From: Bidens hawaiensis
Taxonomy: Eukaryota; Streptophyta; Magnoliopsida; Asterales; Asteraceae
Assembly (NCBI GenBank): GCA_021521415.1
Contig: JAIQDT010005491.1
Coordinates: forward strand, 1 to 64,000
Reading direction: 5' to 3'
DNA length: 64,000 nucleotides
A program made the translations under genes and the position numbers. Position 1 is the stretch's first letter. Each line of letters starts with the position of its first letter. Shown one piece after another: positions 1,158-55,343 of the stretch. Under the pieces are notes generated by a model. The model saw nothing but the letters and a program-made list of their open reading frames with translations. It was not told where the DNA came from and searched no databases.

Positions 1158-1668
1158 TGTTAGTACACGGTTTTGCGTCTCGAGTCTTTGTAATTATCGT
1201 TTAATTTAACGTAAAATATATTATTAATTAAGATAGTTCGTTAGAGGATTAGTCTAGTTCGTTAAGGATGTTTAATGAACTAGACAATAAGTTAAGTTAT
1301 CTCCTGATTCGTTAAGGATGTTTAACGAATCAGGGGGATTTTCGTTATGTTTGTTTATTTAATGTATTGTAACGAAGTGGGAGGCTAGTTCGTTATGGAA
1401 TGTGTAACGAACTAGACCCATCTTCCTTTATATAGAGGTTCATCCTCTGCTTACTTTAAGTTTGGAGATTAACGTATTGAACTTCTGCCCAAGTTTCCTC
1501 TCAATCAAACTTCATCTAATTAATGTATTATATTCTATATACACCTATATACAACTAATACTAATATATATATATATATATATACGTATAATCTAAAAGA
1601 GCAACAATGAACTAGATCCGTTTATTGTTAAATAAAACCTTAGACCTGAGATCAAAAGGGGTTTCTCA
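1158..1668 (+). repeat. E1 5' LTR
   Basis: 511 bp, TG...CA ends, matching 38743-39300. It contains inverted pairs of TTCGTTA/TAACGAA: CTAGTTCGTTAAGG followed by TTTAATGAACTAG, CTGATTCGTTAAGG followed by TTTAACGAATCAG (about 1303-1333), and CTAGTTCGTTATGG followed by TGTAACGAACTAG (about 1384-1414). The last hairpin ends 15 bp before a TATA box. A TA microsatellite lies near 1566-1586. Confidence 0.95.
1429..1434 (+). promoter_or_regulatory. TATA box of E1 5' LTR
   Basis: TTTATATAGAGG, 272 bp into the LTR and directly downstream of the third TTCGTTA/TAACGAA hairpin. The 3' LTR has the same box as CTATATATAG at about 39027-39035. This is the likely start region for genomic RNA. Confidence 0.7.
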
Positions 1669-1682: not shown

Positions 1683-2711
1683 TTTCGGGGATTCGATTGC
1701 TCTTGATTTATAGTTTAGTTTGTTAATTAAGGACTGTTTAGCATAATTTTGGTATTATTGTGTTTTCGGTTTGGTTTTGATCAAATTCATTGTTGAATTG
1801 ATCGGATATGGATTGATTTGGATTGGATCTATGATTGGTAAGGTATTTGGAAGGATTGGTGATTTGGAATTGAAAATTGGATTGGTTTGAATCTGGATTT
1901 GGCCGAAACAGAGTATGGTTGTGGTTAAATTGGTTACAAGTTAAGGTTAATTGGTTACGGAATGGATTGATTTGGTTTCGTATTGAGATTCCGAGTAATT
2001 TGATAGTTTATTTGGAAGATTTGGTGTATTAACGAGTGATTATTACGGATTTGTGAATTGGTTTGGTATTCTTATTTTTCCAGAAATCTGGAAATTTAAG
2101 ATGAAGATTTGAAGATCTTCATTTGTGCTTGAAGAGTCGTTAAATCCTCAGCTAGTTCGTTAGTGTAATTCGCTAATTCGTGATCTAGTTTGTTACATAT
2201 TCTCATTCGTGTCTTCTAATTCGTGAGACACGTGTCCACTTCGTTAACTTTAATTCTAACAAGTTTTTGCCATGTGGCAATAGTTGTCAGAGTTTGTTAC
2301 AACCGTTTTAACAAACTGATTCGTTATCAACTATAGTTGATTCATCACCCTGATTCGTTAATCTTGCCTTAGTGATTCGTTAAGGGAACTCAACAATTTG
2401 TTACCTTAATTCGCTAAGATTTCACTTATTTGATTCGTTACTTGATTCATTAAGGGAACCACCTGATTCGTTAACCTATTTCGTCAACCTAATTCGTTAA
2501 TTTGACTTAATTCGTTGACCCAGTTCGTTATAACCTATTTCGTGTGACACTGTTCCAGATTCATTAAAACTATTCCTGATTCAATACTGTCAGCTGGTTA
2601 TCTTAATTCATTTCAAATAATGTTCACAATTCGATAGAATTACTGTTCACAGTTCGTTAAAATATTTTCAAGTTTAACCCTTGAAGTTTGATTATCTTGT
2701 TATTTTTCAAA
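1683..2711 (+). promoter_or_regulatory. E1 untranslated leader with TTCGTTA repeats
   Basis: About 1 kb without a credible ORF. The first half is T/G-rich (many GGATTGG and TTTGGAT stretches). From about 2150 to 2665 there are roughly ten copies of the E1 motif, mostly as GATTCGTTAA or AGTTCGTTA, in direct orientation, unlike the inverted pairs in the LTR. It ends at the gag ATG at 2712. Confidence 0.65.
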
Positions 2712-8950: not shown

Positions 8951-8954
8951 TCAT

Positions 8955-12206: not shown

Positions 12207-12230
12207 GCCATAGTCTTCATCGTCATCTCC

Positions 12231-13549: not shown

Positions 13550-13979
13550 TGTAGGTTCCTGGACGGATCGTACACGGGATGTCGCTAACAACGCAGGTGC
13601 GGAATCCCTGCGTAGGTAGATACGAGTGTAGAGTATGTAGAGATCGAACACACAAGCAATAAACCAAACACGTTATATTGATAACAAACACGTGACCCGA
13701 GGTCACTATTACAGACAATGACACGTAACACACGAAGTGAACAGCTGAAACGAAAACCCTAAACGACCCACATTAACTGTTTCGGCTGAAACAGTATATA
13801 AACATGACAACTTCGCCATAGGCGAAGTTGTCAATAACTTCGCTGATTCAACAAGTTCGCCAGAGCGAACTTGTTGACAACTTCGCGTGTTACAAATATA
13901 AACATAATCAAAACATAATTGCATTACAGACTCGATTACAAATGCTAGACTATGAACTACTGACACACATGTACCAACA
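13550..13979 (-). repeat. B 3' LTR
   Basis: 430 bp, TGTAGG...CAACA on the plus strand. Contains the same hairpins as the right LTR: GACAACTTCGCC/GGCGAAGTTGTC with a 3-nt loop, and CAACAAGTTCGC/GCGAACTTGTTG with a 4-nt loop, next to a TATATAAA stretch. Confidence 0.97.
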
Positions 13980-13980
13980 G

Positions 13981-13991
13981 ACTCCCCCTTG
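13981..13991 (-). other. B polypurine tract
   Basis: Minus strand reads AAGGGGGAGTC immediately before the LTR start TGTTGGTAC. It is the plus-strand primer for reverse transcription. Confidence 0.85.
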
Positions 13992-14180: not shown

Positions 14181-14253
14181 ATTCGATCGAATGAGTTTCT
14201 GATTCGATCGAATGAGTCTGCCATTCGATCGAATAGGACTCATTCGATCGAAT
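14181..14253. repeat. Four perfect ATTCGATCGAAT palindromes
   Basis: At 14181-14192, 14202-14213, 14223-14234 and 14242-14253, spaced 19-21 bp start to start, three of the four flanked by CTCATT/AATGAG extensions. They lie between the ORF3 stop codon and the polypurine tract, in what should be the 3' untranslated part of ORF3 RNA. The motif differs from B's GCGAAGTT motif. Confidence 0.9.
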
Positions 14254-14292
14254 GAGTCCTGACCGAATGGCAGCGGGTATAAATACCAGCTT

Positions 14293-17200
14293 TCAGGCGT
14301 GAACAGGAAAGAGTTTGAGGATTTTTCGTGCCCGGAGCCCAGGTGCTGTCCGGATGAGGGGGGAGGCCATGCTCGACCTCCCCCTGCCATAGATCGTGAT
14401 TTCAGTGTTTAAACAAGCATGTAATCTTTCGTTTTTTATCAATGAAATCGTTTGTTTCGTGTTTGTTTCTATCCGTCTTTGGTCTTCAAACCTTCCGTCT
14501 CGAACGCGCTCGGATCGTCTCGGTCCCGGGCTGAACCAACACGCGTGCGCCCCTTCTCTAACACATACCGACACCACCCGTTGATATTTCCTAGCTTGAT
14601 CCTTCCAAGCAGGAATGTAGAAGATCTTCTTCTCGTTGAGCACTTTCAGATCAGCCTGCGATAGATTAACAAGATGCATCGGGTCGTAAACCCTAAGCAC
14701 TTCTTGTTCATCCTCATCTTCCATAACCGCCTCAGCTGTCTCACAATCCACGTACCACCATTTTAGATCTTTGAGCACGTCCTTGGGCATGAACTTCATC
14801 GGTACTTCTTTAATGCACCGGATCGGTTTGTATTTCATGACCATCCAAGGTTTTCCATCAACTCTCAGACCTCTATCCTTGTCTTCGACAAGTTTCCCCT
14901 TTTGTGGTTTCAGTAGCTCAAACTTTTTCTCTTTAACGCACTCTTTCCACACGATCTTCGCAATGATTCTAGCCATGTTGTCTTCACTTCTGTTTATCAA
15001 TCCCAATCTGGCTAAATCTTTTACTTCACATTCTGGCAGTGTGTTTAGAGATATCAACTTTCTCTGGAAGTACTGAATGCCATCGTATCTCTTGATCACG
15101 AAGAGCCGCAGCTGCTCGTCGTATAACCAGCAGATAATACCTTTCTTGGCTTCCGCGTATCCCTTAATATTGTAACTTTTTCTGAACATCTTAGGGACCG
15201 ACGGCTTCTTCGTCTTTACGAACCAGTGGGCACAACCCTCCTTCCATTTCGGTTGTTCCTCCCACTCAGCATCTTCCTCCGCGTTCTCATCACCCAACTC
15301 TGGTCTCTCAACCTCCGGAATCTCGTGTTCCACGGAGTCATCAACAATCTCCCCTTCCTCTAACACGTTTTCAACCGTAATCTGCTCTCCAATCCTCTCG
15401 ATCTCATCAACTGGCAGCACATCATCTTCAATCATAAACTCATCATCCTCCTCATCCAACTCTTTCAATGCGTCGATAACATCTTCAACATCAGCATCAT
15501 CATCAACCGCTACCACGTCGTCACCAGCTGCATTTGTAGACTCCCCCTCAGCTGTGGAAGCCCCAAGAGCCTGAGAGGTTCTTGGCAGCTCACCACCTGC
15601 ACCTTCCGGTGCATTGGGATCATCGTCATGATCTTCTCTCCGTTTCGTCCTCAACTCATCTCCCCTACAAGTCTTCTCCCCCTGAGATGCCAAGAATGCC
15701 TTGAAGGCATCTATAACTTTACCGTGTTCAACCAGGAGGGCTGCTTGTAGTTGATTGGATTCCACTAGGCTTTGAATGGTCTTTGTCTGATCAGCAACAA
15801 TCCGCTCTAGTGATGTAATCCTCTCGGAATCTGAAGTAGGCGTTGGAGTTGGCGGGACATCAGCAGCAGAAGTGACCGCAGGTGGTACACTTGGTAACCC
15901 TGCAGTAGTAGTGATGGTCGACTCAACAAATCGTGCAACTACCACCGGTGGATTAAGCGGTTGGGGTGGTAGAGACACAATTGCTGGGGCCGACGTCTCG
16001 ACAGCAGTAACCTGTGCTGTGGAAGGAATAAGAGACATACCAGACAAGGCAGGTGGAGCAAAACGTACCAGCCTCGAAGATTCTCCAGCTCCGGAACCCA
16101 TACCTGTCCGTTCTCTTCGTGAACGTCTGAGCACAATCTGCACTGCCTCCTCTTCATCAACTTCGTCCTCATCCTCGTCTACAGTTCTCGGCCTCTTTCC
16201 CGTAGTTCTCTCCCGAGACACCATAAGTCGTCTCGCTTCAGCAAACGTTTCGTCTAGATCGGAGTCAGCTACCGAAGTAACTGCTCTAGTAACATCCATA
16301 AACTGAGGACCCGAGACATCCATATCAAACAAACCATGTCCGCCAAAGGCAGCATCAAGATCAACGTCTTCAGCAGTAGACACAGCAGGAGATACCGCAG
16401 CTGGCACAGCAGCAGAGGCAACAGTAGATACAACAGGCGCAGCTGATACAGCATGTGGTGCTGCCGCCTGATGTGGTTGCGGGTCTCTGAACTCGTCCCC
16501 TCCTGCAGGAACATACTCCGGGTTGATGAGATATCCGAATAATGGAGTATGCCTGGGACGCAGCTCAGGCTTGCTACGAGTGATCGAAGTGCGGCACTGA
16601 GCAAAGATACGTTTCGTCATGCATTCGACGTATCTAATCGGGCGTCTCTGCGGTAGCGACGGAGCGACATGATTCAAAATCATCTGTAAGAAACGAGGAT
16701 ACATAGTGAATCGCTCGCGCGCCACAGCCCTTCTCTGACGATCGATCTCGTAGAATATCAGCTGACTAAAAGAATATCGGCGGTTGTAAGTCAGCGCTAT
16801 CATGGCTGACTGCATCGTCGCGCCCATCCCATCTGTTCCTGCCTTCCTGCCGGACATGCATACAATCAATACATGCATCAGGAAGCGCCATTGATCCAGC
16901 AAAAACCCTTTCCTCCTCTGCGAGTCCCCCAGCGGACCCGAATAACCCATCCTCAAATAAGCTCCATCACGGAAAGGAGCTACGAACTCCGTTGGGTCAT
17001 TTCTTGTTTCTTCACCGAACTGCAGAGCCAACCGTATATCTTCCGAGGAAAACTGTATGTCATGACCATTTACGGTTGCTCGCATCACCGGAGGCTCAGG
17101 CCTGCAATCATAGTACACTGTCTGCCAAAAGTCTTCAATGTTAGGCAGAGAAATGGGCAGTGTATTTGTGATCGCATGAAAGACTCTTGATCGCTGGAAA

Positions 17201-17331
17201 AATGTGATTATCTCCCTGTAGTCTTCTATGCCTCTTGCGTCTGGATCTAAAATGATGTACTGGTTATGGGCCGGAAAGAATTGTCGTTGATCATCACCGT
17301 CATCACCACCAGCACCTCCAACAGCAGCCAT
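14293..17331 (-). CDS. B ORF3, post-pol protein of unknown function (intact, 1012 aa)
   Basis: Start taken at ATG 17331 (MAAVGGAGGD), since a 3' splice site ends 2 nt upstream. Residues about 20-275 form a domain shared with the E1 and A copies: DFWQT, ATVNGHDIQFSSEDI, LRMGYSGPL, RKGFLLDQWRFLMH, YNRRYSFSQLIF, FTMYPRFLQM and LFGYLINPEYV. Then come a Pro/Ala/Ser/Thr-rich linker, a short coiled coil (about 505-550), an acidic stretch (about 575-690), and a C-terminal domain (about 690-930: GIICWLYDEQL, VIKRYDGIQYF, KWWYVDCETAEAV, YDPMHLVNLSQADL) also present in E1. The last 80 residues are Arg-rich and absent from E1. No signal peptide or transmembrane segment is evident, so an envelope role is unlikely. 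The domain loosely recalls plant transposon-associated N-terminal domains; this is an inference. Confidence 0.85.
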   Translation of the reverse strand: MAAVGGAGGDDGDDQRQFFPAHNQYIILDPDARGIEDYREIITFFQRSRVFHAITNTLPISLPNIEDFWQTVYYDCRPEPPVMRATVNGHDIQFSSEDIRLALQFGEETRNDPTEFVAPFRDGAYLRMGYSGPLGDSQRRKGFLLDQWRFLMHVLIVCMSGRKAGTDGMGATMQSAMIALTYNRRYSFSQLIFYEIDRQRRAVARERFTMYPRFLQMILNHVAPSLPQRRPIRYVECMTKRIFAQCRTSITRSKPELRPRHTPLFGYLINPEYVPAGGDEFRDPQPHQAAAPHAVSAAPVVSTVASAAVPAAVSPAVSTAEDVDLDAAFGGHGLFDMDVSGPQFMDVTRAVTSVADSDLDETFAEARRLMVSRERTTGKRPRTVDEDEDEVDEEEAVQIVLRRSRRERTGMGSGAGESSRLVRFAPPALSGMSLIPSTAQVTAVETSAPAIVSLPPQPLNPPVVVARFVESTITTTAGLPSVPPAVTSAADVPPTPTPTSDSERITSLERIVADQTKTIQSLVESNQLQAALLVEHGKVIDAFKAFLASQGEKTCRGDELRTKRREDHDDDPNAPEGAGGELPRTSQALGASTAEGESTNAAGDDVVAVDDDADVEDVIDALKELDEEDDEFMIEDDVLPVDEIERIGEQITVENVLEEGEIVDDSVEHEIPEVERPELGDENAEEDAEWEEQPKWKEGCAHWFVKTKKPSVPKMFRKSYNIKGYAEAKKGIICWLYDEQLRLFVIKRYDGIQYFQRKLISLNTLPECEVKDLARLGLINRSEDNMARIIAKIVWKECVKEKKFELLKPQKGKLVEDKDRGLRVDGKPWMVMKYKPIRCIKEVPMKFMPKDVLKDLKWWYVDCETAEAVMEDEDEQEVLRVYDPMHLVNLSQADLKVLNEKKIFYIPAWKDQARKYQRVVSVCVREGAHACWFSPGPRRSERVRDGRFEDQRRIETNTKQTISLIKNERLHACLNTEITIYGRGRSSMASPLIRTAPGLRARKILKLFPVHA

Positions 17332-17333
17332 AT

Positions 17334-17889
17334 CTGTACAAAACAAAACAAGTTAGACAATGTGTAAGCAACTCACAAGTTCGCAATTTACCACGAGCGA
17401 AGTTGTGATTAAACCTGTACAGGCGAACTTATAGGTGAGGCGAAGTTGGGAACAACTTAGCTTTATCTGTAAGTTCGTCTAAAAACTGTTAAGTAAATTG
17501 GTATAGGCGAAGTTGATGATAACTTCGCCTTATCACAACATCGCCTTAGGCGAACTTGAGTTCAAGGCGAAGTTACGGATAACTTCGACACAGGCGAAAT
17601 TAAGCTTCAGGCGAAGTTGCGGATAACTTCGCCTTAACCATAACTTCGCCTGAATCTGAAACGGCGACTGTTCAGATTCAATCGGCCAAGATCCGATGTT
17701 TTCGAACAAATTTGACGATCCAGGAGTAACGAACAACACATAATAATGGTGTTAAGACGTAAAGCTCGTCAATGAACACGTAATACACGGTTGAAAAACT
17801 AGGTTTTGAAGGTTCGACGACCCGAGGTCTCGAACCGGGTAAAACTATAACGAACGAGTAAGTTTGGGAACGATATTGACCACACATAC
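17334..17889 (-). other. Candidate 5' UTR intron of B ORF3
   Basis: On the minus strand the donor GACG/GTATGTGTGG is at 17889 and the acceptor TTGTTTTGTTTTGTACAG ends at 17334, leaving AT then the ATG. Within it, 17380-17650 contains about ten GCGAAGTT/AACTTCGC-type motifs, many as inverted pairs such as GCGAAGTTGCGGATAACTTCGC. Confidence 0.6.
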
Positions 17890-18024
17890 CGTCAATAAAC
17901 ACTAGAAACTGGAAACAAAGATCGAAATCGAAAAGTAAACAAGATCGCTGGATAATTTGGTTTTTGATTATTATGTTCGCCGGAATTTTGAAATATATGG
18001 TACTGTTCCAGATTTAAAAGTCCT

Positions 18025-18030
18025 TATATA
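18025..18030 (-). promoter_or_regulatory. TATA box of B ORF3
   Basis: Minus strand CCCTATATAAGGAC. A start about 30 nt downstream would give a leader exon of roughly 110 nt up to the donor at 17889. It lies about 15 bp downstream of the hairpin cluster at 18045-18112, mirroring the LTR, where a hairpin lies 6 bp before the TATA box. Confidence 0.6.
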
Positions 18031-18044
18031 GGGCAGATTCTGTT

Positions 18045-18112
18045 CAGGCGAAGTTACGCTTAACTTCGCCTAGGCGAAGTTAAGCACAACTTCGCCGAAT
18101 TCAACAACTTCG
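18045..18112 (-). promoter_or_regulatory. B motif cluster upstream of the ORF3 TATA box
   Basis: Five GCGAAGTT/AACTTCGC cores in 68 bp: two adjacent hairpins (AGGCGAAGTTA...TAACTTCGCCT, then AGGCGAAGTTAAG...CAACTTCGCC) plus one further half-site. The same core is in both LTRs and in the leader. Confidence 0.8.
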
Positions 18113-18686
18113 CCCGTAATTTCAAAATCAACTCTTTAAGTTTGAAGAAACTAGCACTTAACATTAGAAGCTTCCAAAAAGAGTTAAACAAATATGATCA
18201 TGTCCAAGTAACCAGTTATACAATAATACAACTACAAAAATAGAAAAACTTATAAAAATTTAACGAAATAAGGGATCAAATTTCAGTCTAGTCAGGGACC
18301 ACTACGTTTTTAGAAAATATCCTAACAGGAATCATACTAACTACGTGACTGTCACTTGGATCCGTGTTTAGCTGTATTATGACATAGAGAAACAGGTTGT
18401 AAGCATGTAAATAACTTAAATGGTTTTCATCGTTTCTGTGATACGGATTAAGGTTCAGTTAAGCTCACAATTTTAAGTGGGCAACAACTCAGAGATAATG
18501 ATGTCTTCTATCTATTCTCAAAGCGTATTTGGCTATACCCAAGTCACCCCGAATTGACTTCGACCCATAGTGTCTGATTAACTTGTATATACTCGTTGTC
18601 TGCTTCCCGTTCTCTTCTTACTCCAGAATTGAGAAGTCTTGATTGTTACTATGTCTCATAAGTACTAAAAAAATATACATGTATAA

Positions 18687-18717
<31 letters not shown>

Positions 18718-19469: not shown

Positions 19470-22400
19470 TTACTCGGGATTGATCATCCCGTTCAGCTCA
19501 ATTAGGTTTTGAAATCTGGATTTATCAAACGCTTTTGTAAACAAGTCAGCAAAATTTTCAAGTGTATCAACTTTTTCGATCTTGATCAGTTTCTTCTCAG
19601 CACAATCCCGTATGAAGTGATGACGAATGTCAATATGCTTAGTTTTACTGTGCTTCACGGGATTGTTAATTACTGAGATGGCGGCAGTGTTATCAATTAA
19701 AATAGGAGTGAGTAAGAAATTCAGACCATAGTCGCGTAATTGTTGCTGAATCCACAAAACCTGAGAGCAGCAGTTGGATGCTGCCATGTATTCAGCTTCG
19801 CATGTTGAAATTGCAACTGATGTCTGTTTCTTGCACTGCCAGGAAACTAATCTTCCTACAAGAAACTGATAGCCTCCTGTTGTTGACTTCCGACTCTGAT
19901 TGCATCCCCCATAATCAGAATCTGTATATGCCACCAGTTCAACGTCTCCTCCCTTTGGGTACCACAACCCTAGTTTCGGCTTGCCTCTGAGATAACGCAA
20001 AATCCTCTTCACACCTTTCATGTGAGATTCCTTTGGGTTTGCCTGAAAACGAGCACAAAGACAAACAGCAAACATTATATCAGGCCTAGAAGCAGTTAAA
20101 TACATTAAAGAACCTATTATCGCCCGATACAGAGTTGGGTCCACATCTGCGTCACCATCTGATTCAGCACCCAATTTGTGATTGACGCAGATTGGAGTAT
20201 CATATGGAGAACTGTCCTCCATCTTGAATCTTTTCAGCACATCATGAACGTACTTCGTTTGATGAATGAACATCCCGTCCTTCTTCTGATCAACCTGCAA
20301 TCCTAGAAAGAAAGTTAGTTCACCCATAGCACTCATCTCGAATCGTTTCTTCATGACAGCCTCAAAATCCTGACACATGGATACTCTTGATGCAGCAAAA
20401 ATGATATCATCCACGTAGACTTGAACCAGTAGGAAGTCACATCCTTCTCTCTTCACAAACAACGTACTGTCAATCAATCCCCTTTCAAAACCATTTTCCA
20501 GCAAGTAGTCCGATAACGTTGAATACCAGGCACGAGGTGCCTGATGTAACCCATATAACGCCTTGCTCAACCTGTATACGTGATCAGGAAAGTCTGGGTC
20601 AGGAAAACCCGGAGGTTGCTCAACATACACAACCTCATCAACTTTCCCGTTTAGAAACGCGCTCTTCACATCCAACTGAAATACCTTCATCTTTTTAAAT
20701 GCAGCAAACGCCAAAAACAATTGAATCGCTTCTAACCGGGCAACAGGAGCGAACACCTCATTGTAATCAATACCCTCTTGCTGATTAAAACCTTTAACAA
20801 CCAGCCTCGCCTTATTTCTTACGATAATTCCCTTATCATCTCTCTTACACTTGAACACCCATTTTGTGCCTATAGCGTGCACATTCCTTGGTTTTTCAAC
20901 CAAAGTCCAAACTTCCATTTTCTCGAACTGAGCCAACTCTTCTTGCATGGCTTCGACCCACGAGCTGTCCTTTAAAGCCATTTGATAATTCTTTGGTTCA
21001 ATTTGGCTTATAAAGCAGGAGTACAAACATTCGTTCAGTATACCCGTTTCCTTAATGCTTGTATAAACACAGGTGTGCTCATTCAAGCTACTTCTGGTTT
21101 GTACACTGGAGGACACATCACCTATAATATTCTCCAATGGGTGATCTTTGTGAATTCTCGTGGTCGGAACAGCACCAACATGCAAATTATCTTCCAAATT
21201 TGAAGAGATCTCATCTATGGTTGTTTCTGGCTGAGAGTGAAAAGGATTAATAAATTCTTCTTCAGTTGAGGCCGCAGGGGTATCGATAGGGTTTGATGTG
21301 GAAGGTTGAGATTTCTCAAACATCTGATGTTGCAATAGATTCTCTTCCTCATCAAGTATCATCTTCGTCACAGCTCTTTCGTCTTCTTCAGAAATTTCCA
21401 AATCAGGTACGTTAAACGACTTAAAAAGTTTAACATAGTCGAAAAGCTCAGCAGGTCCATTGCTTGGTTTTGGCGGTTGGTAACTAGTAATGTCGGTGTT
21501 ACAAACCACCTCCACCTTGCAAGTCGACGTATTGAAGACCCGTCTGTTGGGAGTCCCAACAACATAACCGACTAGGATTCCCTCATCGGCTACTTCACCA
21601 AATTTCGAATTAGTCTTCAAAATCGAACAAGGAGACCCAAATGGTTCAAGACCGCACAAGTTGGGCTTCCTTCCTTGCATAAGCTCGTAACAAGTTTTTC
21701 CAAGTCTCTTAACGGTTAACACCCTATTCAGAACATAGCAGGCTGTAGCAACTGCTTCAGCCCAGAACATCACAGGAAGCTTCGAGTCTGCCAGCATAGT
21801 TCTGGCTCCTTCAATTAACGTTCGGTTCTTCCTTTCAGCCACTCCATTCTGTTGTGGAGTATACGGAGCGCTGTATTGATGTTCAATTCCCTTCTGAAGA
21901 CAGAAGATTTCCATTTCAAAGTTCTTGAACTCTGTCCCATTGTCGCTTCTGATGTATTTAACTGATTTACTCATGACGTTCTCAACTTTTGTAATTAGAT
22001 TCTTCACCATCTGAGTTGTCTCGTCTTTTGTTTTCAGAAAATATACCCACGAGTATCGCGAGTAGTCATCAGTTATCACCAAGCAGTAAGAAGTACCACC
22101 TAGACTTTTTACATTCACTGGACCGAAGAGATCCATATGAAGTAGTTCTAGAGTACCGGCAATAGAATTAATCTTCTTGGTGAGATGGGATTTCTTGTGT
22201 TGCTTTCCCTTCTTGCATGCTATACATTTGTCTTCAAAGTTAAAACTTTTTAAGGGAACGCCCATCACAAGCCCATTCTTGACAATGAAGTTCATCTTCC
22301 GAAGATGAATATGTCCCATTCTCCTGTGCCATAATTCTGATTCTGATTCGCTTGCTTTTGTCATTAAACAGGATTCTCCGGTGGCCATTTCAGTAGACCT

Positions 22401-22772
22401 CATGTCCATCACATATGTATTCGTTTCACGTGGAGCTTTCATTACTATCCATTCGTCTGGTATCTGAAAACCAGGCTTCAATACTATCGCTTCATTCTTC
22501 GTGAAATGGACAGTGTAATCTTTATCACAAATCTGCGACACACTCAGCAGATTGTGCTTTAACTCCTCCACAAAGTTTACATTCTCAAGTGTCATTATCC
22601 CATTCGACACTGTTCCTCTACCGGTAATCCTTCCTCCGCTCTCACCAGCAAAACTAACTCTTGCTCCCTGAACAGGTTTTAAGTCTTGCAACAAGTGTTT
22701 GTTGCCTGTCATGTGCCGGGAATAGCCGCTATCTACAATCCAAAGATTGTTGGCAGCCCTGTTCAACTGTTC
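19470..22772 (-). CDS. pol: B pol: protease, integrase, RT, RNase H (intact)
   Basis: Open frame 22817-19470; the first 15 codons precede a 3' splice site at 22773, so the protein probably begins at EQLNRAANN. Numbered from the frame's first Met: protease [10 protein letters not shown] with catalytic Asp 29; pre-integrase zinc site H164/H169, C198/C201; integrase D229 (HMDLFGP), D292 (RSDNGTEF), E328 (NGVAERKN), a D-x35-E spacing; RT from [10 protein letters not shown] with [17 protein letters not shown] and catalytic YVDD at 20406-20417; RNase H with [26 protein letters not shown] and [12 protein letters not shown]. It ends [12 protein letters not shown]. Integrase before RT is the Copia order. 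The frame differs from gag by -1 (or +2), so a frameshift or splicing is needed. Confidence 0.95.
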
Positions 22773-22795
22773 CTGCACAATAAAACAAAGAGTTA
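22773..22795 (-). promoter_or_regulatory. gag stop codon and 3' splice site at the B gag-pol junction
   Basis: Minus strand: gag ends RF-TAA at 22793, then CTCTTTGTTTTATTGTGCAG with the AG at 22774-22773, then GAACAG. It is a strong polypyrimidine-AG acceptor. E1 (29488-29510) and A (45377-45401) have the same arrangement. The donor was not identified. Confidence 0.6.
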
Positions 22796-25417
22796 GAATC
22801 TTGGGACCCAAGACCAATTGGTTTTGGATCGATACGTCCCGTACCCTGGCTTTCTCAAGTTAGCATCAGGATAATTTCTGTAAGTCCTGTTAGGGAATCT
22901 CCTTGCAGATTGAGTGTAATGCCTTCCAAACCTATGAGAGTTGAAAGTATTATATCTTGTGGTTTGGTTGAAAAACTGAGGTTTGTTTTTATAAAAACTT
23001 GAATTAGTTACATTTTGGCACTTTGAAAAGTTTTCATTTTTAGCAGTAACAAAATGACGCTTATCCTCAGTTGTATTTGGCCTCACACCTCTAAATCTCG
23101 GCTTCAGAGGGCAGTCTGCAACTAAATGCCCTAATTTGTTACATCTAAAGCAACACCGACTCTCCATTTTCTTGTCAAATGTTGGTTTGGATGTAGAGGC
23201 AGTGTTACCATCCGTTCGTCTCACATAAGGTGGGACGTACGGATTGAGTGGAGCACTCTTTTTAGAAATTTTATTTTTATCTCCACCGGTGGGTAACCCT
23301 ACCTTCTCTTTTGTCTGACCAGATTCGGACAACTTATCCGAATCCGATGAGACTGGACTCGAAACAGAAATATTCACACTAGAAACAGGCGAACTCGTTT
23401 CGCCACAGCTAACACTTGGTTCTATATTTGTAACCTTGATGGGAGTTGTCTGAGTAACCTCGAAATCAACAGATTTCTGAACACTCGGATTATAAGTATA
23501 GTTGTGGTTAAAGGGTGGTGGAACTTCGTGATAACCGATTCCTCCCCTCTTTGCAGAGGTACCTTGATCACTCACGAGGTGATCAAGGATGGCCGAGGAA
23601 TTCCTGAACTGCTCAAGTTTGCGGTTCAGTTCCACCACCTTCACCTGGTGGTCAGCAATCTGTTTATCCCGATCAGCAATCACTTTAGTTTTTTCTTCTA
23701 AAACTTCATAACTAAGATCAATTATTTCAATTTTCTCAGCAAGTTTAGTTTTTAAGCTTTGAATGTCTTTTTCACATGCTTTTATTTTAATTTTATAACT
23801 TGTTTCTCTTGCTTTCGTAAAATGGTGATCTTCTTTAATAGTTTTAAAATCAGCATCTAAACGGACGTACTGATCAGTCATTGTTGTTAGTTGCTCAGAC
23901 AAATTTTCACAATTAGTACAAATATTCTTATTACTTACCTCGGAGCGAGTGTCCTTGTCATCTGCCATGAAAGCTGTTTCTTCTTCAGTAGCTTTCTCAT
24001 TTCCATCAACCTTCTCACATTCTTTAACTTCAGCCTCAGCCATGTTCGCTTGCTCACCAGAACCACTTGAATGCGGGTTCCAGTTGTACTCACCTGCTTC
24101 TCTGGTCAACATGGCGTTAATCTCTCTGTTAACTCCAGAGTGTTGTGTAGGCCGACCTTGTCCTCGTTCAACCCTCTCATTTCTGCATTCCTTGGCAAAG
24201 TGCCCGTACTGTTGACAATTATAGCACCTTACCTTGGATTTGTCAAACCCGGGCCTACCACCAACAAACTTTCTCCCAGTTTTGTTCATAAACCGTTTTA
24301 CACGCCTCACAATCATTGCCATTTGCCATTGCAAATCCATCTCCTCCAGATCATCAGCATCGATCTGGTCGTAGTCCTCATCCAGTACAGCAGGGTCCAC
24401 AATCTTCCCCTGGATGTAGTTTTCGTAGGAAGCAATAAATGATGCATAGACTGCAAACTGCTCTTCAGCAGATTTTACACTCATAGGCATCTTGGAATAA
24501 TTATTGCTTGAGGCATTTGCAGAAAAACCACTTGAGGATGCATGAGGCTTTGAAGTACTTGATCCTCCAGCAACGAAACAGACATCACCGTTCATGTTCA
24601 CAGAAACGTTTCCTTCATGAGAAGAGTCAGGACCTGACTCCCCTTTCGAGTAAAAAGCAGCAGATTCAGGCCTCGAACTTGAGCCTGAGTTAACCTTTGC
24701 ACCATACATACCAGGGTCTTGTATCTGATCTGTTGGTGTTTCTTTTCGAACCATATTAAGCTCATAAGTTCTGAGCTTGTTTACTGCTGTTTCCAGATCA
24801 TAATTTGGAAAGTCTCTGTCTTCCCTCATAAGAACGGTGTACATTTCCCACTTCGGTGGGAGAGCATCGAGAAGCTTTTCAACAATCTCTTCTTCTCGAT
24901 AGGCAATCGAATAATTGCTAAGCTCTGTCATTAGATGATAGTATCTGGTGATAATATCATCCAGTGATTCGTTCTTCAAAAATTTGAAGACGGAGAACTG
25001 GGTCTTTAAGAGTTTGATCTTTGATGCACGGATACCCACATTCCCCTCGAATCTATTTTCAAGAGCATCCCAAAGCTCTCTCGCAGAAGTGTACTTTCTG
25101 AAAGTGTGGAGAACCTCTTGAGGAAGTGCCATTGTTATAGCTGCATGGGCCTTGCTCTCAGCCTCATACATTTTCTTTTCTTCGTCCTCCATTTTGCTGT
25201 ACTTCTTAACCACGTCACGGCCTTCGTATTGCATATTTGGAGGGATATATCCATCCTGGATGCACACCCACATTTTGGCATCCTGGTATTTAATGTATTG
25301 GATGAATCTGTCCTTCCATGCCACGAAGTCAGTTCCTTTCATCAACCTCGGGGCCTTAGTGGCTGACCCCGCTTCTACTTCCATCTTGACCAAATCGGAG
25401 ATGTTAATTGACGACAT
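22793..25417 (-). CDS. gag: B Gag (intact, 874 aa)
   Basis: Nucleocapsid/capsid precursor. Residues 20-220 form the Copia Gag core ([44 protein letters not shown]). A segment [17 protein letters not shown] (about 356-372) precedes a first CCHC zinc knuckle (C398, C401, H406, C411). Residues about 497-605 are a strong coiled coil, ended by [15 protein letters not shown] second CCHC knuckle is at C756, C759, H764, C769, and the C-terminus is Arg/Tyr-rich. Two knuckles separated by a coiled coil make this Gag unusually long for Copia; E1 and A share the plan. The start at 25417 ([11 protein letters not shown]) matches the family N-terminus. Confidence 0.94.
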
Positions 25418-25960
25418 CCTTGCGAAAACCTGAAAAACCTGAAAATAAAAAAAATATTAAAACAGCTCAGTAGGCGAAGTTAAGAATAACTTCGCTTGAA
25501 AGTTAACTTCGCTGAAAAGAGAACTTCGCTGGGTCTTAAATTCGCTTGACTTGGCGAAGTTAAAAATAACTTCGCTTAGAATGAGCGAACTTAGGAGGTA
25601 AGCGAACTTGGGTGGAAAGCGAAGTTGCGGATAACTTCGCTAAGGCGAACTTATGAGGTAAGCGAAGTTGTGGTTAACTTCGCTAATCCTTATATCTTCG
25701 CCGAAACCCTAATTCCAGTGACGGCAACTTCGCCTGAAGAATGGTAACTTCGCCCGAAGAACGGTAACTTCGCCCGATGAACAAGGAAACTGTTCAGATC
25801 TGATTTCGTCAATCCAGCAGTTTCCGATCAATGCAATGGCTTGAAAATGACTGTCAAGCACGAGCAAAACACAATCCCAACAAAAACACGTCACGCGAAT
25901 AGGTCAAACGAGACGTTTTCTACACCCGCGTGAAATCCCGAACCTCACAATCGAGCCGAT
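25418..25960 (-). promoter_or_regulatory. B leader with GCGAAGTT/AACTTCGC repeats
   Basis: Untranslated region between primer binding site and gag. From 25470 to 25775 there are about 16 copies of the core GCGAAGTT or AACTTCGC (including GCGAACTT variants), often as inverted pairs 4-6 bp apart. 25776-25960 has none. Confidence 0.8.
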
Positions 25961-25973
25961 GGCTCTGATACCA
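25961..25973 (-). other. B primer binding site (initiator tRNA-Met)
   Basis: Minus strand TGGTATCAGAGCC, 2 nt after the LTR end at 25976. Confidence 0.95.
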
Positions 25974-25975
25974 AT

Positions 25976-26405
25976 TGTAGGTTCCTGGACGGATCGTACA
26001 CGGGATGTCGCTAACAACGCAGGTGCGGAATCCCTGCGTAGGTAGATACGAGTGTAGAGTATGTAGAGATCGAACACACAAGCAATAAACCAAACACGTT
26101 ATATTGATAACAAACACGTGACCCGAGGTCACTATTACAGACAATGACACGTAACACACGAAGTGAACAGCTGAAACGAAAACCCTAAACGACCCACATT
26201 AACTGTTTCGGCTGAAACAGTATATAAACATGACAACTTCGCCATAGGCGAAGTTGTCAATAACTTCGCTGATTCAACAAGTTCGCCAGAGCGAACTTGT
26301 TGACAACTTCGCGTGTTACAAATATAAACATAATCAAAACATAATTGCATTACAAACTCGATTACAAATGCTAGACTATGAACTATTGACACACATGTAC
26401 CAACA
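25976..26405 (-). repeat. B 5' LTR
   Basis: 430 bp. Hairpin GACAACTTCGCC (26232-26243) / GGCGAAGTTGTC (26247-26258) lies 6 bp upstream (in minus orientation) of a TATA box, TATATA at 26221-26226. A second hairpin CAACAAGTTCGC/GCGAACTTGTTG is at 26275-26302, and a single AACTTCGC at about 26304-26312. Confidence 0.97.
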
Positions 26406-34619: not shown

Positions 34620-34880
34620 TAAAATTACATAAAGTAATTCGTTAAATGTAATTCGTTAAATTTAAAGAATAAGGGCATTTATAACGAATTGAGTTCCTAT
34701 TCGTTACTTTTTAATTCGCTTCCGCCACTCTGTAACGAATGACTTCTAATTCGTTAAGATTTTAACGAATTACGTGTAATTCGTTATGACACGTGTTAAC
34801 ATAAGATAACGAATCACCTGATTCGTTATTTCACAATTCAAACAAATCCGATGATTGGTTACATTGAAAAATGTGCGTGT
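34620..34880 (+). promoter_or_regulatory. E1 motif cluster upstream of the ORF3 TATA box
   Basis: About nine TTCGTTA/TAACGAA words in 260 bp, including the hairpin ATAACGAATCA/TGATTCGTTAT (34806-34816 and 34819-34829, 2-nt loop), 57 bp before the TATA box. The same core fills the LTR and the leader of E1. Confidence 0.8.
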
Positions 34881-35022: not shown

Positions 35023-35721
35023 GTAAACACGATCACAACGTGATGATATTCGTCACATTTGAAAACTGTTTGATGGGTTAATTGTTTGATTTTGTTATCG
35101 GGTTTTTGAGTGTTCGCCAAACCTTAATTTAATCAACTTTTTGCCATGTTTTGGGACCACAAGTCGATACCATTATAATCACAATATGATTCTGAGATCC
35201 TTGTGATCATTGATTTGGTCTTATGTTGTTGATTGTGGGTGTATTGATTTCCGATTGCAAATTTGACTTTTCATGTTCTTGGTAATTTTGACCTTGAGCA
35301 GTTTAATCAAACATTAAGCTTAATTAGCCATTCGTTATTGTTTAACGAATTGAAACTCTTTCATGTCCAATTCGTTATTCAAATCAATACATTATAACGA
35401 ATAAGATTTTCCTTTGTTATTAATAACGAATTAGACCATAATTCGTTAACTTTTATTAGTGATTCGTTAAACCTAATTCGTTAATTATTTACTTGATAGC
35501 GAAGCAGTAATTCGTCATAACGAATCACCAATTCGTTATAACGACTTAGAATTTTTAACGAATGACATATTAAATTAGATTAAATGACTAATTATTTTAA
35601 TTTTTAAATATTATTTTAAATTATAAGTTAATATACTAGTTAAATTCTATACTTTTTTAATTATATGATGGTTGTTATTATTATTATTCATTATCACTGA
35701 TTCTCGGGTTTGTTTATATAG
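35023..35721 (+). other. Candidate 5' UTR intron of E1 ORF3
   Basis: Donor CACAAG/GTAAACACG and acceptor GGGTTTGTTTATATAG ending at 35721, followed by TGCA and the ATG at 35726. About a dozen more TTCGTTA/TAACGAA motifs lie inside (35330-35560), again in inverted pairs. As in B, the motif occupies both promoter and intron. Confidence 0.6.
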
Positions 35722-35725
35722 TGCA

Positions 35726-38708
35726 ATGGCTGATAACATGGATCAAGATCCTCCCGTTGATGCACCACAACAACAACCGGCACAGGATATTCTCATGCTT
35801 CCATATAACAAACGACAAAACGTTTGTGTCTTCGTTGGTACAACTTTGCTGACGAGAACATTTTTGATGGGATGTTGGAGTTCTTACATCACTAACGTAT
35901 TCATTATTCTATCACTGCTAATCCTGATGTCCGATTCAGCATCGTTCGTCAATTTTGGAATACAACGAGATATGTGGAGGCTGAGAATCACATTGTGGCT
36001 GAGATGAATACGAGACCAGTTGTGGTATCAACTGAGTCTGTTTGAAGGGTGATGAGGTTTGATGATACGATTGATGACCCGAGTGAGTACCACAAAGAGC
36101 TGATCAAAGGGCTGTTTGGACGATTATTTTTTTCCGGTGAACTTGATGAGTCCATGTATAACAAGGCATACTTGTGTCCCACATACAAGTATCTATTACA
36201 CGTTCGTATACATTGCCTTGGTGGACGGAAAGGGGGTTTTGACGAATGCCAAATCGTGCTTCAATCGGGTTCGTTGCTTTGGTTCTAAATAAATACTTCA
36301 ACTTCTCTGAAATGATCTTCGATCATCTCAAAGAAAATTGTACTGTTGTGAAGCGACGTGCAAAGTTCTTGATGTATCCTCGCTTCATTCAATTGTTCGT
36401 TCAAGATGCTATACGTGATTTGGTGCTCGATCCAACACGTCTCGATGATAATCTGAGGTTGGAGAACATGACAGCCGATACTATACGTAGGATGAAGTCG
36501 TATCGTCAGACTCCTCATCCACGTACCAAAATATTGTTTGGGCATCTGGTGAATCCAGATTATGTATGTCCTCCCAATGATCGCTGGATCCACGATGACT
36601 CGGATTCTGAGGGTGAGGAAGGACCAGGTGGGAACGATGGTGATGATGATGATGATTATGATGGTGATGATGGTGGTAATCCAGTTCAACAACAACATGT
36701 TGAGGCTGAGGCAGCTGTTGTCGAAGCTGTTGAACGTAAAAGGAAAGGGAAAGCGGTGGCAAGTGAAGAGTCCTTGAAGCATCGAGTGACTGCTGGAGCG
36801 GGTATTTCATTGGGAGTTCAACCTATAAGGTCGTCTATTCCTCAAAGACCGGCGGTGCCGCTTACTACTAGCACCCCGGAACTTACTTTGACGACTACGC
36901 TCACATCTGATCCTAGGCTTGGTATGATTCCTCAATTTGTTCTATCTACTCTGCCAAGACCTACGACTGCTACTTCGATGGTTTCTCCTACACAGATGAT
37001 AATGCCTCCACCACCGATGGATTTTTCTTATCTGAGGCTTAACCAACCTCGAGGTCCTGTTCAACCAACCCCTTCTTCGTTTCTTGCAATGTCTCATGAT
37101 CAACAAATGAATATGGTTTTGAGTTTACTCCATTTGTATGAAAATCAAATGTCTGCTGACCGAATGACTCAAGAACGTATGATGGAGAACCAAAAGAAGC
37201 TGGTGAGTTATGTATCCTTTTGCCAAAAATAGATCAAAGCCCTCCATGATGAACTTATGAAGCTTAAAACGATGATGAAGAGGATCTTATCTTGCAACTA
37301 ACATGCAAGGATGATGAACTTAAGAAGCTTAAAACGATGATGAAGATCCAGTTGTTTCGGGTACTGGAGGAAGTGAGCCTAAGCAAACTCACGGCTCGTC
37401 TTCTGGTGCTGGTACAAGTGTAGTGGGTGATTCGGGAAAGCAGATAATTGCTTATCATGATTCTACAGCTGCAACACCCATTGAGATGATCAAGGCCAAT
37501 ACCGTTTTTATTGATGGTACGGGGGTGGTTAGAAGTATTGTTAATGCATATGAGATTGAAGTGGGACAGTTTGTTGAGAAGTCCCTAACACGAGAGCAGA
37601 TTTATATTCTGCTTGGTCTAAATGATGATGAGTTAACCGTGTTAGAGGCTGAGGACGATGTGGAGGTCGAGAACGATGAAGAGATCTTAAACGATCCAAA
37701 TATTCAGATGAATACTGAGTTATTTATGAAGATGAGGAGGTGGAGATTGAGGAGGTCACGGCTGAGGAGTATCCTGACTTATTTTAACACTCTAACGTTG
37801 ATCAGGGTGCTCCGGTATTTAATGAAGAAACTGTCAAAGCAGCCAGGGATCAGCTGGAAAAGGAATCAAAGGTCAAGAATTTTGTTGATACAATATTTGA
37901 TTCAAAGATTGATCCGTCTGTTGAAGATGTTCGAGGATGGTTTGCATTTAGAGACAAGAGGGCTCGTAAGATTATTGATGCACACAGATACGTAGATCAA
38001 GAATTGAAAGTGGAAGCCATTGCACGTGCCAAAGCCAATCAGATGACTTCTTTCAAGGCCGTGTCGAAAGTTAGAGGTGATATTATTTCATGGATTTTCG
38101 ATTCTGAATTAAAAGTTTGTATTATCAAATGGGGGAATGGTGTTCAGCATTACAAAAGGATGACTGACGTTCTCTCATTACCAAGATGGGACGTACGTAC
38201 TCTTTAGTATCATCCATTTACTAACCGTGGTGGGGATCACCGAGCAAGTTGGTTTCACCAACATCTGTTGTTCGAGGTGAACCACGGATTCAAATACTTT
38301 AAGCCGCAGATTCCAACCCGTAAGCGTATCGATGAGATTTATCCAAGGACAGGTTGGAGGAAGTTGGTACTTAAGGTAAAGCAGCCAAAAACTATGAAGC
38401 GTGTACCGGTGAAGACGCTGAACCAACATATGTATTTATCCTTTAACCGCTGGTATTACGATAACCGAACTGGAGAGGCCGTTATTGTGTTGGGTAAAGG
38501 CTTAAAGACCGAGCTAATAAAGATCATTGATCCTATGTGGCTCATGAACTTGACAGAGACCGACAATGACGTGCTATGCAAGAATAAGATATTGATAGAG
38601 CGTCGTGAAGACTATGACCGAGCAACGCAGTTTCAATGCGGTGTTCGTGTGTGTCATGAACATGGTATTCACAGCTGCAAAGATTGGCAGACAAGACGCT
38701 TCAAGTAA
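35726..38708 (+). pseudogene. E1 ORF3, post-pol protein (broken)
   Basis: Starts MADNMDQDPPVDAPQQQ at 35726. The N-terminal domain shared with B survives in pieces: VRQFWNT, FDDTIDDPSEY, LHVRIHCLGGRKGG, NKYFNFSEMIFDHL, KFLMYPRFIQL and LFGHLVNPDYV. An acidic tract (about 36590-36680) and a Pro/Thr-rich linker follow. The C-terminal domain is clear: GDIISWIFDSELKVCIIK, NGVQHYK, then (38268-38708) NRWYYDNRTGEAVI, IDPMWLMNLTETD, GVRVCHEHGIHS, each matching B. It ends DWQTRRFK, so B's Arg-rich tail is absent. Breaks: frameshift near 35815, TGA near 36041, frameshift near 36250, stops near 37230 and 37780-37990, stop 38205. Confidence 0.82.
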
Positions 38709-39917: not shown

Positions 39918-41015
39918 TGTTGGGATGAGAAAACACTAAAGGAATATTGGAATATTCTCAACCTCCTTGAAAATGGCTAAGTATGGAAACCGAGCAAGCT
40001 TAGGCTTCCCGACAAGGTTTTACTTAATCTAGCAAGGTATTTTGCTTTCCCAGCAAGGTTATCTTCTAGAATTCCTCTTAAGTGATAAACCGAGCAAGGT
40101 TCACTTTGTCTAGCAAGTTTGTTCTTTAAAGTCAAGCAAGATTTATTTCATAGCAAAGTCTTGACTAAACCAAGCTAAAACCAAGTCTTTTGGAAGATCT
40201 AGCAAGGTTTATTCATAATAAATAGTGGTCCCAACAAGTTTGAAAGAAGTTAATAAAGAATTTACTCAAGGACTTCTGGCGAGAAAGGTTAAACTCAATG
40301 AAAGCTACATTGTTACCAGCACACTTAGGCATGTTTAATAAGTTAAGATTAACAAAAGGTAGAAGGGATCTCTAAAAAACAAGTTTGCTCGTAGGACTTT
40401 ATCGAGAAAAGTTTGATATGGTTAAGAGGATTGAAGTCTGCTAGTTGAATATTTTCTAAGGAAAATATTCTAAGTAAAGCTTGCCCGGAGAACTGCTCCC
40501 CATCACACTTAATGGTTACCAGGTCTGCTCGATAAAGACAAATGCTGCAAAGCTTGCCCAAAGACCTATTTTACACTTAGCATTTATTGTAATACTTTTG
40601 AATATGATTGTATCATTAGGTTTCTAAAAGGGAATGTCAGGTGTCAGACTAGGCCTATAAAAGGAATATTTTAGGGCATACAAGACACCTGCAACAGAAT
40701 AGAAAATATAGTGATTTGACGTCAGACTCACTCCTGTACTGAAATCTGTTGTAAATCCTGACATTCCACCTTTAAACCCTAATCGATTTTCATTGTATCC
40801 TTCATAATACTAATGGAAATCTTTTGAGTTAATTGTGTGTATTTGTTACTTTAGTGTCCAGTTTGCAACAATTGGAGTGTTATTGATTCCGCCTTTAATA
40901 CTCCAGTGTTCTTTACAAAATAATAGTGTCTTTAACCTTTTTGTCGACACATTGGTGCGGGTTACGATAGTGAATTAATGAGCTAATCTGAGAGAGAGAG
41001 AGAGAGGGACCGACA
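39918..41015 (+). repeat. LTR of element A (3' LTR of left copy)
   Basis: 1098 bp, from TGTTGGGATGAG to ...GAGGGACCGACA, aligned along its length with 60349-61453. About a dozen AGCAAG-type words (CGAGCAAGCTT, AGCAAGGTTATC, AAAGCTTGCCC) between 39985 and 40560. TATAAAA box at 40656-40662 in GGCCTATAAAAGG. It ends with a GA microsatellite. Because left A is cut by the window start, its partner LTR is not seen. Confidence 0.88.
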
Positions 41016-41568: not shown

Positions 41569-41570
41569 AG

Positions 41571-53440: not shown

Positions 53441-54860
53441 AAAAGAGTTGCATATAAAACTTCTAGCAAGCTTTAATGATTTTTAAACTTTCTAGCAAAC
53501 TTAGATGTTTTGATAAGATGTTTAACTCATTCGAGCAAGCTTAATCTTGGATATGAATGAATATCTTATTTCTAGCAAACTTTGATGTTTTTGAACTTTC
53601 TAGCAAACTTAGTTGTTTTGATATGATTTTTAACTCATTCGAGAAAGCTTGATGATTATCTGTACTTAAAATGTAATTTCATGTATTATCGGGTAGACTT
53701 TGATAATTTTATACTTTCGAGTAAATTTGATATCTTAATGCACCATTTGCTCTTAGACCTTTAAATTCAATGATAAAGCTGTTTGAAATATGGTTTAAGA
53801 CTAAAAGAGTTGCATTTTAACCTTGAATATGTTACTTCTAGCAAGCTTTAACGATTTTTTAAACTTTCTAGAAAACTTAGATGTTTTTATAGGATGCTTA
53901 ACTCATTCGAGCAAGCTTAATACTTGAATATGTCATTTCCAGCAAGCTTTGATGTTTTTGAACTTTCTAGCAAACTTAGGTGATTTGATAGGAATTTTAA
54001 CTCATTCGAGCAAGCTTGATGATTATCTGTACTTAAATGAATTATTCATGTATTATCAGGTAGACTTTGATATATTTATGCTTTCGAGTAAACTTGAATG
54101 TTCAGAAAGTTGTTCTTGTCAAGCACACTTGATAATTATGTGATACATGTATGAATATGCTTTACATATCTGTTTGGAGTAAACTTAAGTGTTTTAGTTG
54201 AAAATTGTATTTGTCTAGCATACTTCATAGTATTGGTGTTATTTTCTGAAATCACAAGGGTTTTCAAGTAAACTTTGTTTACCGAACAAACTTCATGCTT
54301 AGAGAATACTTGTCAAATGGTGAATCATTCCAAGTGTTCTCCCAGCATACTTTTTAATTTCAGAAAATTCCTAGCAAACTTTACTTTTCGGGTACACTTT
54401 GTGTTTAAAGAATACTTGTATATCAAAGGATAAGTACTCTCTAGCACACTTTGCACTCTTTGAGTATTTTCGGGCATAATTTTACTTTAAAGTATACTTG
54501 AATGAATATTCGTTAACTTTTTCATATCTAAAGTAATATCGGCTAAGGTTTGTGAAATTCAGATATTCGAGCAAGGTTGACAATTAGAAATATCTCTAAG
54601 TTATTATTTTTGGATTCTTTATTGATTCCTAGCAAGGTTGCCTATTTGATAAACTATACTTGATTATTTGTCTTGTGATTTATTTCTCGAGAAATCTTGT
54701 ATATTCGAGTAAGCCTCCTTTATCTTATCCACTTAGTTTTATCCACTTAGTGTTATTTTTAATTTACTTTAAATATCTGAACAAAATCTGGAACGAGCAA
54801 GCTTTGAAAATGAACTTTACCTAGCAAACTTTGTGAATAAACTTTAACGAGTAAGGTTTA
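53441..54860 (+). promoter_or_regulatory. A motif region: AGCAAACTT / GAGCAAGCTT repeats
   Basis: More than twenty copies of TAGCAA(G/A)CTT and CGAGCAAGCTT-like words, at irregular spacing, with a partly repeated longer unit (TTTCTAGCAAACTTAGATGTTTTGATA and variants at about 53490, 53600, 53870 and 53965). The same words fill the A LTR. It lies just upstream of the ORF3 TATA box. Confidence 0.8.
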
Positions 54861-55311: not shown

Positions 55312-55343
55312 ATATAAATTATCCTTTAGAGAAGAAGCATAAT

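Follow-up and report, generated by a model that had tools for sequence, protein, structure and literature searches.

Element-specific half-site arrays at the LTR and ORF3 promoters of a Sirevirus-like Copia retrotransposon in Bidens hawaiensis, and a candidate self-encoded binding factor

The stretch of DNA analysed here, hereafter the window, comprises 64,000 nt of the Bidens hawaiensis genome (GCA_021521415.1, contig JAIQDT010005491.1, positions 1-64,000) and contains element B, a young Sirevirus-like Copia long terminal repeat (LTR) retrotransposon on the minus strand at 13550-26405. The two differences between its LTRs correspond to an age of approximately 0.18 million years at a rate of 1.3e-8. 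The gag and pol genes occupy different, overlapping frames and are followed by a third gene, open reading frame 3 (ORF3), located after pol. B carries the Sirevirus primer binding site (PBS) junction CA/ATTGG followed by TATCAGAGC, with positions 25977-25962 reading CAATTGGTATCAGAGC, and the polypurine tract (PPT) octamer AGGGGGAG followed by TC and then the LTR, as well as palindromic boxes, termed RM in Sireviruses, upstream of both the LTR TATA box and the gene in the envelope (ENV) position. The AT/TG attachment site that follows the terminal PPT in Sireviruses is TC/TG in B, and the CGG-CCG core of the Sirevirus RM is lacking, the half-site of B being GCGAASTT. An ungapped search for an inverted repeat at the terminal PPT gave just an 8-nt exact complement, a bordering repeat that is absent from three published Sirevirus members too (PMC2829016). 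Sireviruses are described with several identical PPTs behind the ENV gene; four AGGGGGAG-type octamers are present in B, one terminal, one within an inserted solo LTR and two within ORF3. An intron in the 5' untranslated region (5'UTR) of ORF3 was predicted by scoring against a plant splice consensus. A strong splice-acceptor-like sequence at 25430-25439, just before gag and after the leader, parallels the end of this intron; a donor matching the acceptor at 25439 was sought in the gag leader and none convincing was found.

An octamer, GCGAAGTT, was present as 34 exact matches on both strands of the window, compared with a mean of 1.14 and a maximum of five in 100 dinucleotide shuffles of the window, none of which reached 34. 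The exact matches were distributed as four per LTR, 13 in the leader, five in the ORF3 promoter segment and eight in the ORF3 5'UTR/intron, with none in the 5,950 bp of gag-pol, in the 2,759 bp of ORF3 coding sequence or in the window outside B. Sites with one mismatch numbered two in gag-pol, two in ORF3 coding sequence, one in the remaining pol-ORF3 spacer and 23 outside B. Inclusion of the variant GCGAACTT, giving GCGAA[CG]TT, raised the total in the window to 44, every one in the control regions or LTRs of B (U3 region of the 5' LTR, 6; leader, 16; ORF3 upstream, 5; 5'UTR/intron, 11; 3' LTR, 6). An earlier note on this DNA had described inverted pairs at 26232-26258 and 18045-18112, about 16 further copies in the leader, about 10 in the ORF3 intron and near-absence from gag, pol and ORF3 coding sequence, and had proposed the count against shuffled controls; all of this was borne out, the last site ending 6 bp before the LTR TATA box as described and 16 bp before that of ORF3, where about 15 bp had been claimed. 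The coordinates of these and other features are given in Table 1.

Table 1. Features of elements B, C and D in the window
Feature	Position	Strand	Details
Element B 5' LTR	25976..26405	-	430 bp, TGTTGG...CCTACA; target site duplication (TSD) ATCCT at 26406-26410
Element B U3 array	26235..26312		6 half-sites GCGAASTT; last ends 6 bp before LTR TATA (26221-26228)
Element B 5' LTR/PBS junction	25962..25977	-	CA/ATTGG/TATCAGAGC
Element B leader array	25474..25773		16 half-sites: 13 GCGAAGTT, 3 GCGAACTT
Element B gag	22793..25419	-	Retrotran_gag_2, two zinc knuckles
Element B pol reading frame	19470..22859	-	Copia: integrase, RVT_2
Element B ORF3 promoter array	18048..18113		5 half-sites; last ends 16 bp before ORF3 TATA
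Element B candidate TATA box of ORF3	18022..18031	-	CTATATAAGG in element sense
Element B predicted ORF3 5'UTR intron	17334..17889	-	donor ACG/GTATGT, acceptor TTTTGTACAG just before ATG
Element B ORF3 intron array	17377..17649		11 half-sites
Element B ORF3 coding region, as far as solo-LTR insertion region	14573..17331	-	919 codons, no stop; N-domain ~residues 15-235
Element B terminal PPT AGGGGGAG	13982..13989	-	start 10 bp upstream of 3' LTR
Element B 3' LTR	13550..13979	-	2 differences from 5' LTR; TSD ATCCT at 13545-13549; 6 half-sites inside
Element C 5' LTR	1158..1668	+	6 TAACGAAY half-sites, all upstream of the TATA box
Element C leader array	2155..2660		9 half-sites TAACGAAY
Element C ORF3 upstream array	34637..34829		10 half-sites, 56 bp before TATA (~34885)
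Element C ORF3 5'UTR/intron array	35330..35563		11 half-sites; intron ends judged by eye
Element C ORF3, decayed	35863..38693	+	28-31% identity to B ORF3 where pieces match
Element D U3 array	39993..40389		5 half-sites AGCAARSTT; last 266 bp before TATA (~40655)
Element D ORF3 upstream array	53465..54831		15 half-sites, single direction; last 110 bp before TATA
Element D ORF3 N-domain, decayed	55335..55958	+	

The full half-site in B is 10 bp long, RGCGAASTTR. With one LTR counted (n=38), a purine occupied position 0 in 36/38 half-sites and position 9 in 37/38, and among unpaired half-sites it did so in 17/18 at each position. Adjacent convergent half-sites were spaced by 14 bp in all 10 pairs and adjacent same-direction half-sites within 45 bp by 17 bp in 9 of 14, whilst the variant GCGAACTT accounted for 7/18 unpaired compared with 1/20 paired half-sites. 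The ratio of observed to expected CpG was 1.3-1.8 around the promoters of B compared with 0.64 in gag-pol, and the motifs of B and of element C described below themselves contain a CpG. Because the half-site is constant whilst spacers vary, because spacing in B is fixed, and because of the placement of the arrays and the lack of any exact coding site, a single DNA-binding factor common to the LTR and ORF3 promoters appears well supported. This part of the earlier note, one DNA-binding factor for both RNAs, thus stands as the reading of the arrays best supported by the sequence, a hairpin acting as RNA being disfavoured.

A scan of the window for other locally repeated 8-mers revealed two further Copia elements with an ORF3, C and D. 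Element C (plus strand, LTRs at 1158-1668 and from 38743) is split by a Gypsy-like stretch within which B lies. The motif of C, TAACGAAY, was additionally found six times in the 3' LTR and was absent from gag, pol and ORF3 in the parts tabulated. The PBS junction of C has G as its second letter, one of the listed variants, and its PPT is AGGGGGTG in place of AGGGGGAG. Element D (LTRs near 39919 and 60348) carries AGCAARSTT, with one copy in its ORF3 region and nine at 60424-60862 in its right LTR area, and its sites point one way in 15/15 cases upstream of ORF3 and 4/5 in U3. No copy of the B motif was found within C or D; the C motif occurred elsewhere twice in the B 5'UTR/intron and once in the D ORF3 upstream region, and the D motif once in the C ORF3 region and three times outside the tabulated parts of these elements (5382, 6089, 62302). 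Identity of B to C and D was mostly 43-69% in pol, with one weak piece at 35%, compared with 28-31% in ORF3, indicating that ORF3 evolves faster. CpG observed/expected in C was mostly 1.2-2.7 (R-U5 0.66) compared with 0.69 in gag-pol, and in D (body 39919-59458) was 0.33-0.67 in control regions compared with a very low 0.10 in gag-pol.

Several structural details of these elements were also recorded. Direct repeats at 3628-4519 and 26784-27673, 96% identical, are LTR-like and would be the LTRs of a Gypsy-like element nested in C and itself holding B; reading frames lie at 7783-12230, and at 7057-7312 the Gypsy-like stretch contains a short one-direction tandem array of an CTGGGGACAAGC unit. 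The pol region of D includes a 3-kb tandem duplication (46044-49075 and 49074-52134, 88% identical), and the sequences that precede its left LTR (39810-39918) and its right LTR resemble each other and include a PPT-like stretch, as would be seen if D belonged to a tandem of copies with shared LTRs. The solo LTR inserted close to the 3' end of B ORF3 (14053-14541, TSD CGCGT) has a TATA box at 14278 that is immediately preceded by a different palindrome, ATTCGATCGAAT, in four copies, a fourth version of the motif.

The palindrome GCGAAGTT-N6-AACTTCGC was found at 101,455 places in the 3.47-Gb genome, compared with none for the reversed control pattern; in IMG/VR, one stretch (L001) carried it. 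Fourteen loci were fetched around listed places, that is, picked by motif, and nine of them contained ORF3 and its upstream region. By tblastn these nine ORF3 copies had a best piece 64-97% identical to B and a weakest piece of 44%, with N-domain identity of 73-84% in eight and 98% in one. Each had 15-23 sites upstream and none in the ORF3 stretch (311 bp in one, ~2.8-2.9 kb in eight), and in all nine the acceptor-ATG was present and a TATA box began exactly 17 bp past the end of a site. Three of the other five loci were LTR/leader pieces with a PBS and 11, 15 and 22 sites, and a fourth (L023) had 14 sites and no ORF3 match.

Motif and ORF3 clade were compared in the window and in seven loci from 200 kb (C1:500001-700000, 20 tiles), a region with round coordinates, on the one contig listed for the palindrome, that was known beforehand to hold B-motif places and is not blind to the B motif. 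The seven ORF3 N-domain loci comprised two of the B clade, with 20 and 16 B sites upstream (L028 being the same copy as L010), three of the C clade, with 12, 9 and 0 C sites, and two of the D clade, with 15 and 5 sites by a widened D pattern and 5 and 1 by the original. One of these, L035, was placed in the C clade on 50-55% identity to two C pieces compared with 32% to B and 25% to D. The motif follows the ORF3 clade in six of the seven loci, one being empty, but ORF3 is passed on together with the remainder of its element. In the same tiles 2/10 B-motif and 2/10 C-motif clusters lay on the leader side of a PBS, indicating that leader arrays recur.

The most economical account of these element-specific motifs is that ORF3 itself is the binding factor. 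The earlier note had named ORF3 or a host activator as candidates, and the evidence favours ORF3: in related elements of the same genome several control regions share a different motif, and the model of the ORF3 N-domain had as its best Foldseek match the DNA-bound form of VANC21, an Arabidopsis anti-silencing factor, a resemblance of low confidence. The Pfam family PF20167 (Transposase_32) matched the B N-domain at 14.3 bits (E 0.039), under the family cut-off of 45 bits, and also matched three of the eight sequences in alignment A2 with E values no higher than 1, the best being 3.4e-5. We propose that a single sequence-specific protein would bind, as DNA, all four arrays of B, before the LTR TATA box, in the leader, before the ORF3 TATA box and in the predicted ORF3 intron, and that this protein is most likely ORF3, acting via its N-terminal domain. 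ORF3 would recognise just those copies that carry its own motif, and would open both promoters or hold them open, most likely by counteracting DNA methylation in the manner of VANC, and ORF3 and the genomic RNA would thereby be switched on together, the former presumably from its candidate TATA box and with its predicted intron in use. Each of B, C and D may thus recognise and switch on its own kind by a self-encoded protein. The anti-silencing outcome is weakly suggested by the analogy with VANC and by the CpG-rich promoters and, more loosely, by sunflower SIRE elements, for which CG methylation is reported to drop in the interior and CHG methylation to stay high (PMC12844716). Taken as a whole, with ORF3 binding RGCGAASTTR arrays, opening both promoters and most likely acting against silencing, we consider the chances of this explanation to be evenly balanced.

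A number of observations weigh against it. The ORF3 N-domain model is weak (mean predicted local distance difference test 55, predicted template modelling score 0.55), none of its 96 Foldseek matches reached E 0.001, no VANC chain was among the matches listed in profile searches of PDB sequences, and DUF1985 was not among the Pfam matches listed for ORF3. Purifying selection on ORF3, shown by the ratio of non-synonymous to synonymous substitution rates (dN/dS) in four copies, is qualified in that two of the four copies contain stop codons and that most pairs are saturated for dS. Element D has neither a leader nor an intron array (0 sites in each), its U3 sites lie at least 266 bp and its ORF3 sites 110 bp from the TATA box compared with 6-56 bp in B and C, and half-site spacing in C is not fixed. 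Among the motif-picked loci, L021 has 15 B sites and a sole ORF3-like match of 31% identity. In the 200-kb region, the C-clade ORF3 copy L034:8705-9037 has no motif array in the 2.96 kb upstream, four C sites lying at 6326-6430 on its 3' side, whilst D-clade L027 has one site by the first D pattern and five by the widened one, mD2, which was devised after L042 was seen, plus six B sites, five of them at a neighbouring B-type LTR. Finally, the motif tracks the whole element lineage and so is not specific to ORF3; divergence of the lineage as a whole and divergence of ORF3 cannot be told apart here.

Four alternatives were considered. ORF3 could bind the arrays as an ordinary autoregulator, activator or repressor, with no effect on DNA methylation. 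This would draw on the same anatomy and ORF3 evidence, and sites 6 and 16 bp from the TATA boxes could also block transcription; it shares the first half of the explanation proposed above, and the probabilities of the two overlap. The high CpG observed/expected of the promoters and the VANC21 likeness lean weakly towards anti-silencing, and we regard plain autoregulation as unlikely. Alternatively, the motif could be bound at both promoters by a family of host transcription factors (stress factors, for example), the element multiplying the sites and different elements using different host factors. The TATA-proximal sites in B and C would fit, as would a database comparison in which Sirevirus boxes matched mainly stress-related sites (Bousios et al. 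2010, PMC2829016). If the host factors were a fixed set, however, there would be no reason for leader, intron and both promoters to change in step, as happens in related elements, several arrays of which share a different motif; a host factor is rated unlikely.

The arrays could also be repeats with no function that duplication and gene conversion have kept alike, their agreement within an element reflecting copying only. Spacer letters of the leader and ORF3 intron arrays were alike beyond chance (score 154, shuffled maximum 118, 0/1000 spacer shuffles) and those of the ORF3 promoter and intron arrays barely so (71 compared with a shuffled maximum of 70), indicating that some arrays were copied from one another. 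Likeness was weak for U3-promoter (32/1000 shuffles), confined to few letters, and not beyond chance for U3-leader (860/1000), promoter-leader (536/1000) or U3-intron (116/1000), yet the half-site is the same throughout, so that copying does not explain the whole set. Spacers diverge whilst half-site and spacing stay, and the sites upstream of the nine ORF3 copies persist although eight of these are just 73-84% identical to B in the N-domain, making functionless repeats an improbable account. Derivation of the ORF3 promoter from a duplicated LTR-leader module was tried separately and rejected, likeness outside the half-sites not being significant for LTR plus leader or for U3 (41 and 76 of 300 shuffles); against the leader alone it was borderline (13/300).

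The earlier note had called the motif a hairpin, and its letters do fold, one palindrome unit of B at -9.4 kcal/mol and the leader array at z = -7.7. Conservation does not, however, seem to act on base pairing. Among 41 unique palindromes from 14 genome loci, Watson-Crick pairs were found in 54% at position 9 compared with 44% expected, A standing opposite C in 18/41, and in 56% at position 0 compared with 49% expected, and unpaired half-sites of B were as conserved as paired ones; the pairing and purine pattern thus fits a protein half-site rather than a stem. RNA hairpins acting in packaging, translation control or as small-RNA precursors, in keeping with the small-RNA hotspots at maize Sirevirus LTR palindromes (PMC5311732, PMC10760457), were rejected as the main function because the pairing positions do not clearly co-vary, and are very improbable also in that two of the arrays precede TATA boxes, splicing would remove the intron array from the ORF3 mRNA wherever the predicted intron is in use, and the D sites run almost all in one direction.

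The closest published parallel is provided by the Sireviruses, in which palindromic element-specific boxes lie upstream of the LTR TATA box and the ENV gene (Bousios et al. 2010, PMC2829016). RMs were reported there for 13 elements, the CGG-CCG core being present in 12 and absent from Tnd-1. B resembles this system in its multi-copy palindromic box before the LTR TATA box, in the clustering of the same box before the gene in the ENV position, in the CpG-rich, element-specific sequence of the box and in its PBS junction and terminal PPT. It differs in lacking the core and in its attachment dinucleotide, TC rather than AT; in B and C, moreover, the gag leader and the predicted 5'UTR intron of ORF3 also contain arrays. 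The authors of that study suspected an internal ENV promoter and could not conclusively identify one, whereas a candidate TATA box and 5'UTR intron can be named for ORF3 here, and in 2010 they rated the role of the envelope-like gene as not experimentally proven and highly controversial (PMC2829016). In maize, Sirevirus LTRs likewise have palindromes in their regulatory region, which have been studied as small-RNA hotspots, in accounts that as consulted make no mention of a self-encoded binding factor (Bousios et al. 2016, via PMC5311732 and PMC10760457). Additional ORFs of sunflower Athila/Tekay elements resemble ORF3 in their 3' position, a PF20167-like domain, with Transposase_32 (PF20167) itself reported in one, and a predicted nuclear signal; these elements, unlike B, are Gypsy, and matched motif arrays are not among the features described in the portions consulted (PMC11728184).

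The VANC/VANDAL system offers a parallel in mechanism (Hosaka et al. 2017, PMC5735166). There, too, a short element-specific motif is dense in non-coding parts, upstream and in introns, and rare elsewhere, and the element encodes a fast-evolving protein, VANC being reported to evolve faster than the VANDAL transposase. VANDAL is a Mutator-like DNA transposon whereas B has LTRs, PBS, PPT, gag and pol, and VANC has DUF1985 whereas no DUF1985 match was listed for ORF3; VANDAL motifs lie in one orientation, as in D and unlike B. In the literature searched, as far as it was accessible, no retrotransposon-borne VANC-like system and no leader or intron RM arrays were recognised, and the leader and intron arrays, a named ENV TATA box and intron, the concordance of motifs in co-resident elements and the link to VANC were not seen and are apparently new. 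It is conceivable, at somewhat less than even chances, that the 'envelope-like' third gene of Sirevirus-like elements encodes no envelope and is instead a VANC-fold, sequence-specific DNA-binding factor that lifts silencing at boxes carried by its own family alone, boxes and protein co-evolving as a private self-recognition code for each family. If the ORF3 N-domain binds its own motif and not its neighbour's, this would account for the possession of separate boxes by each family, would give a reason for the coexistence of many families in one genome, and would show that sequence-specific anti-silencing encoded by transposons is found not just in Mutator-like DNA transposons but also in abundant retrotransposons, the Sireviruses among them accounting for 21% of the maize genome (PMC10760457).
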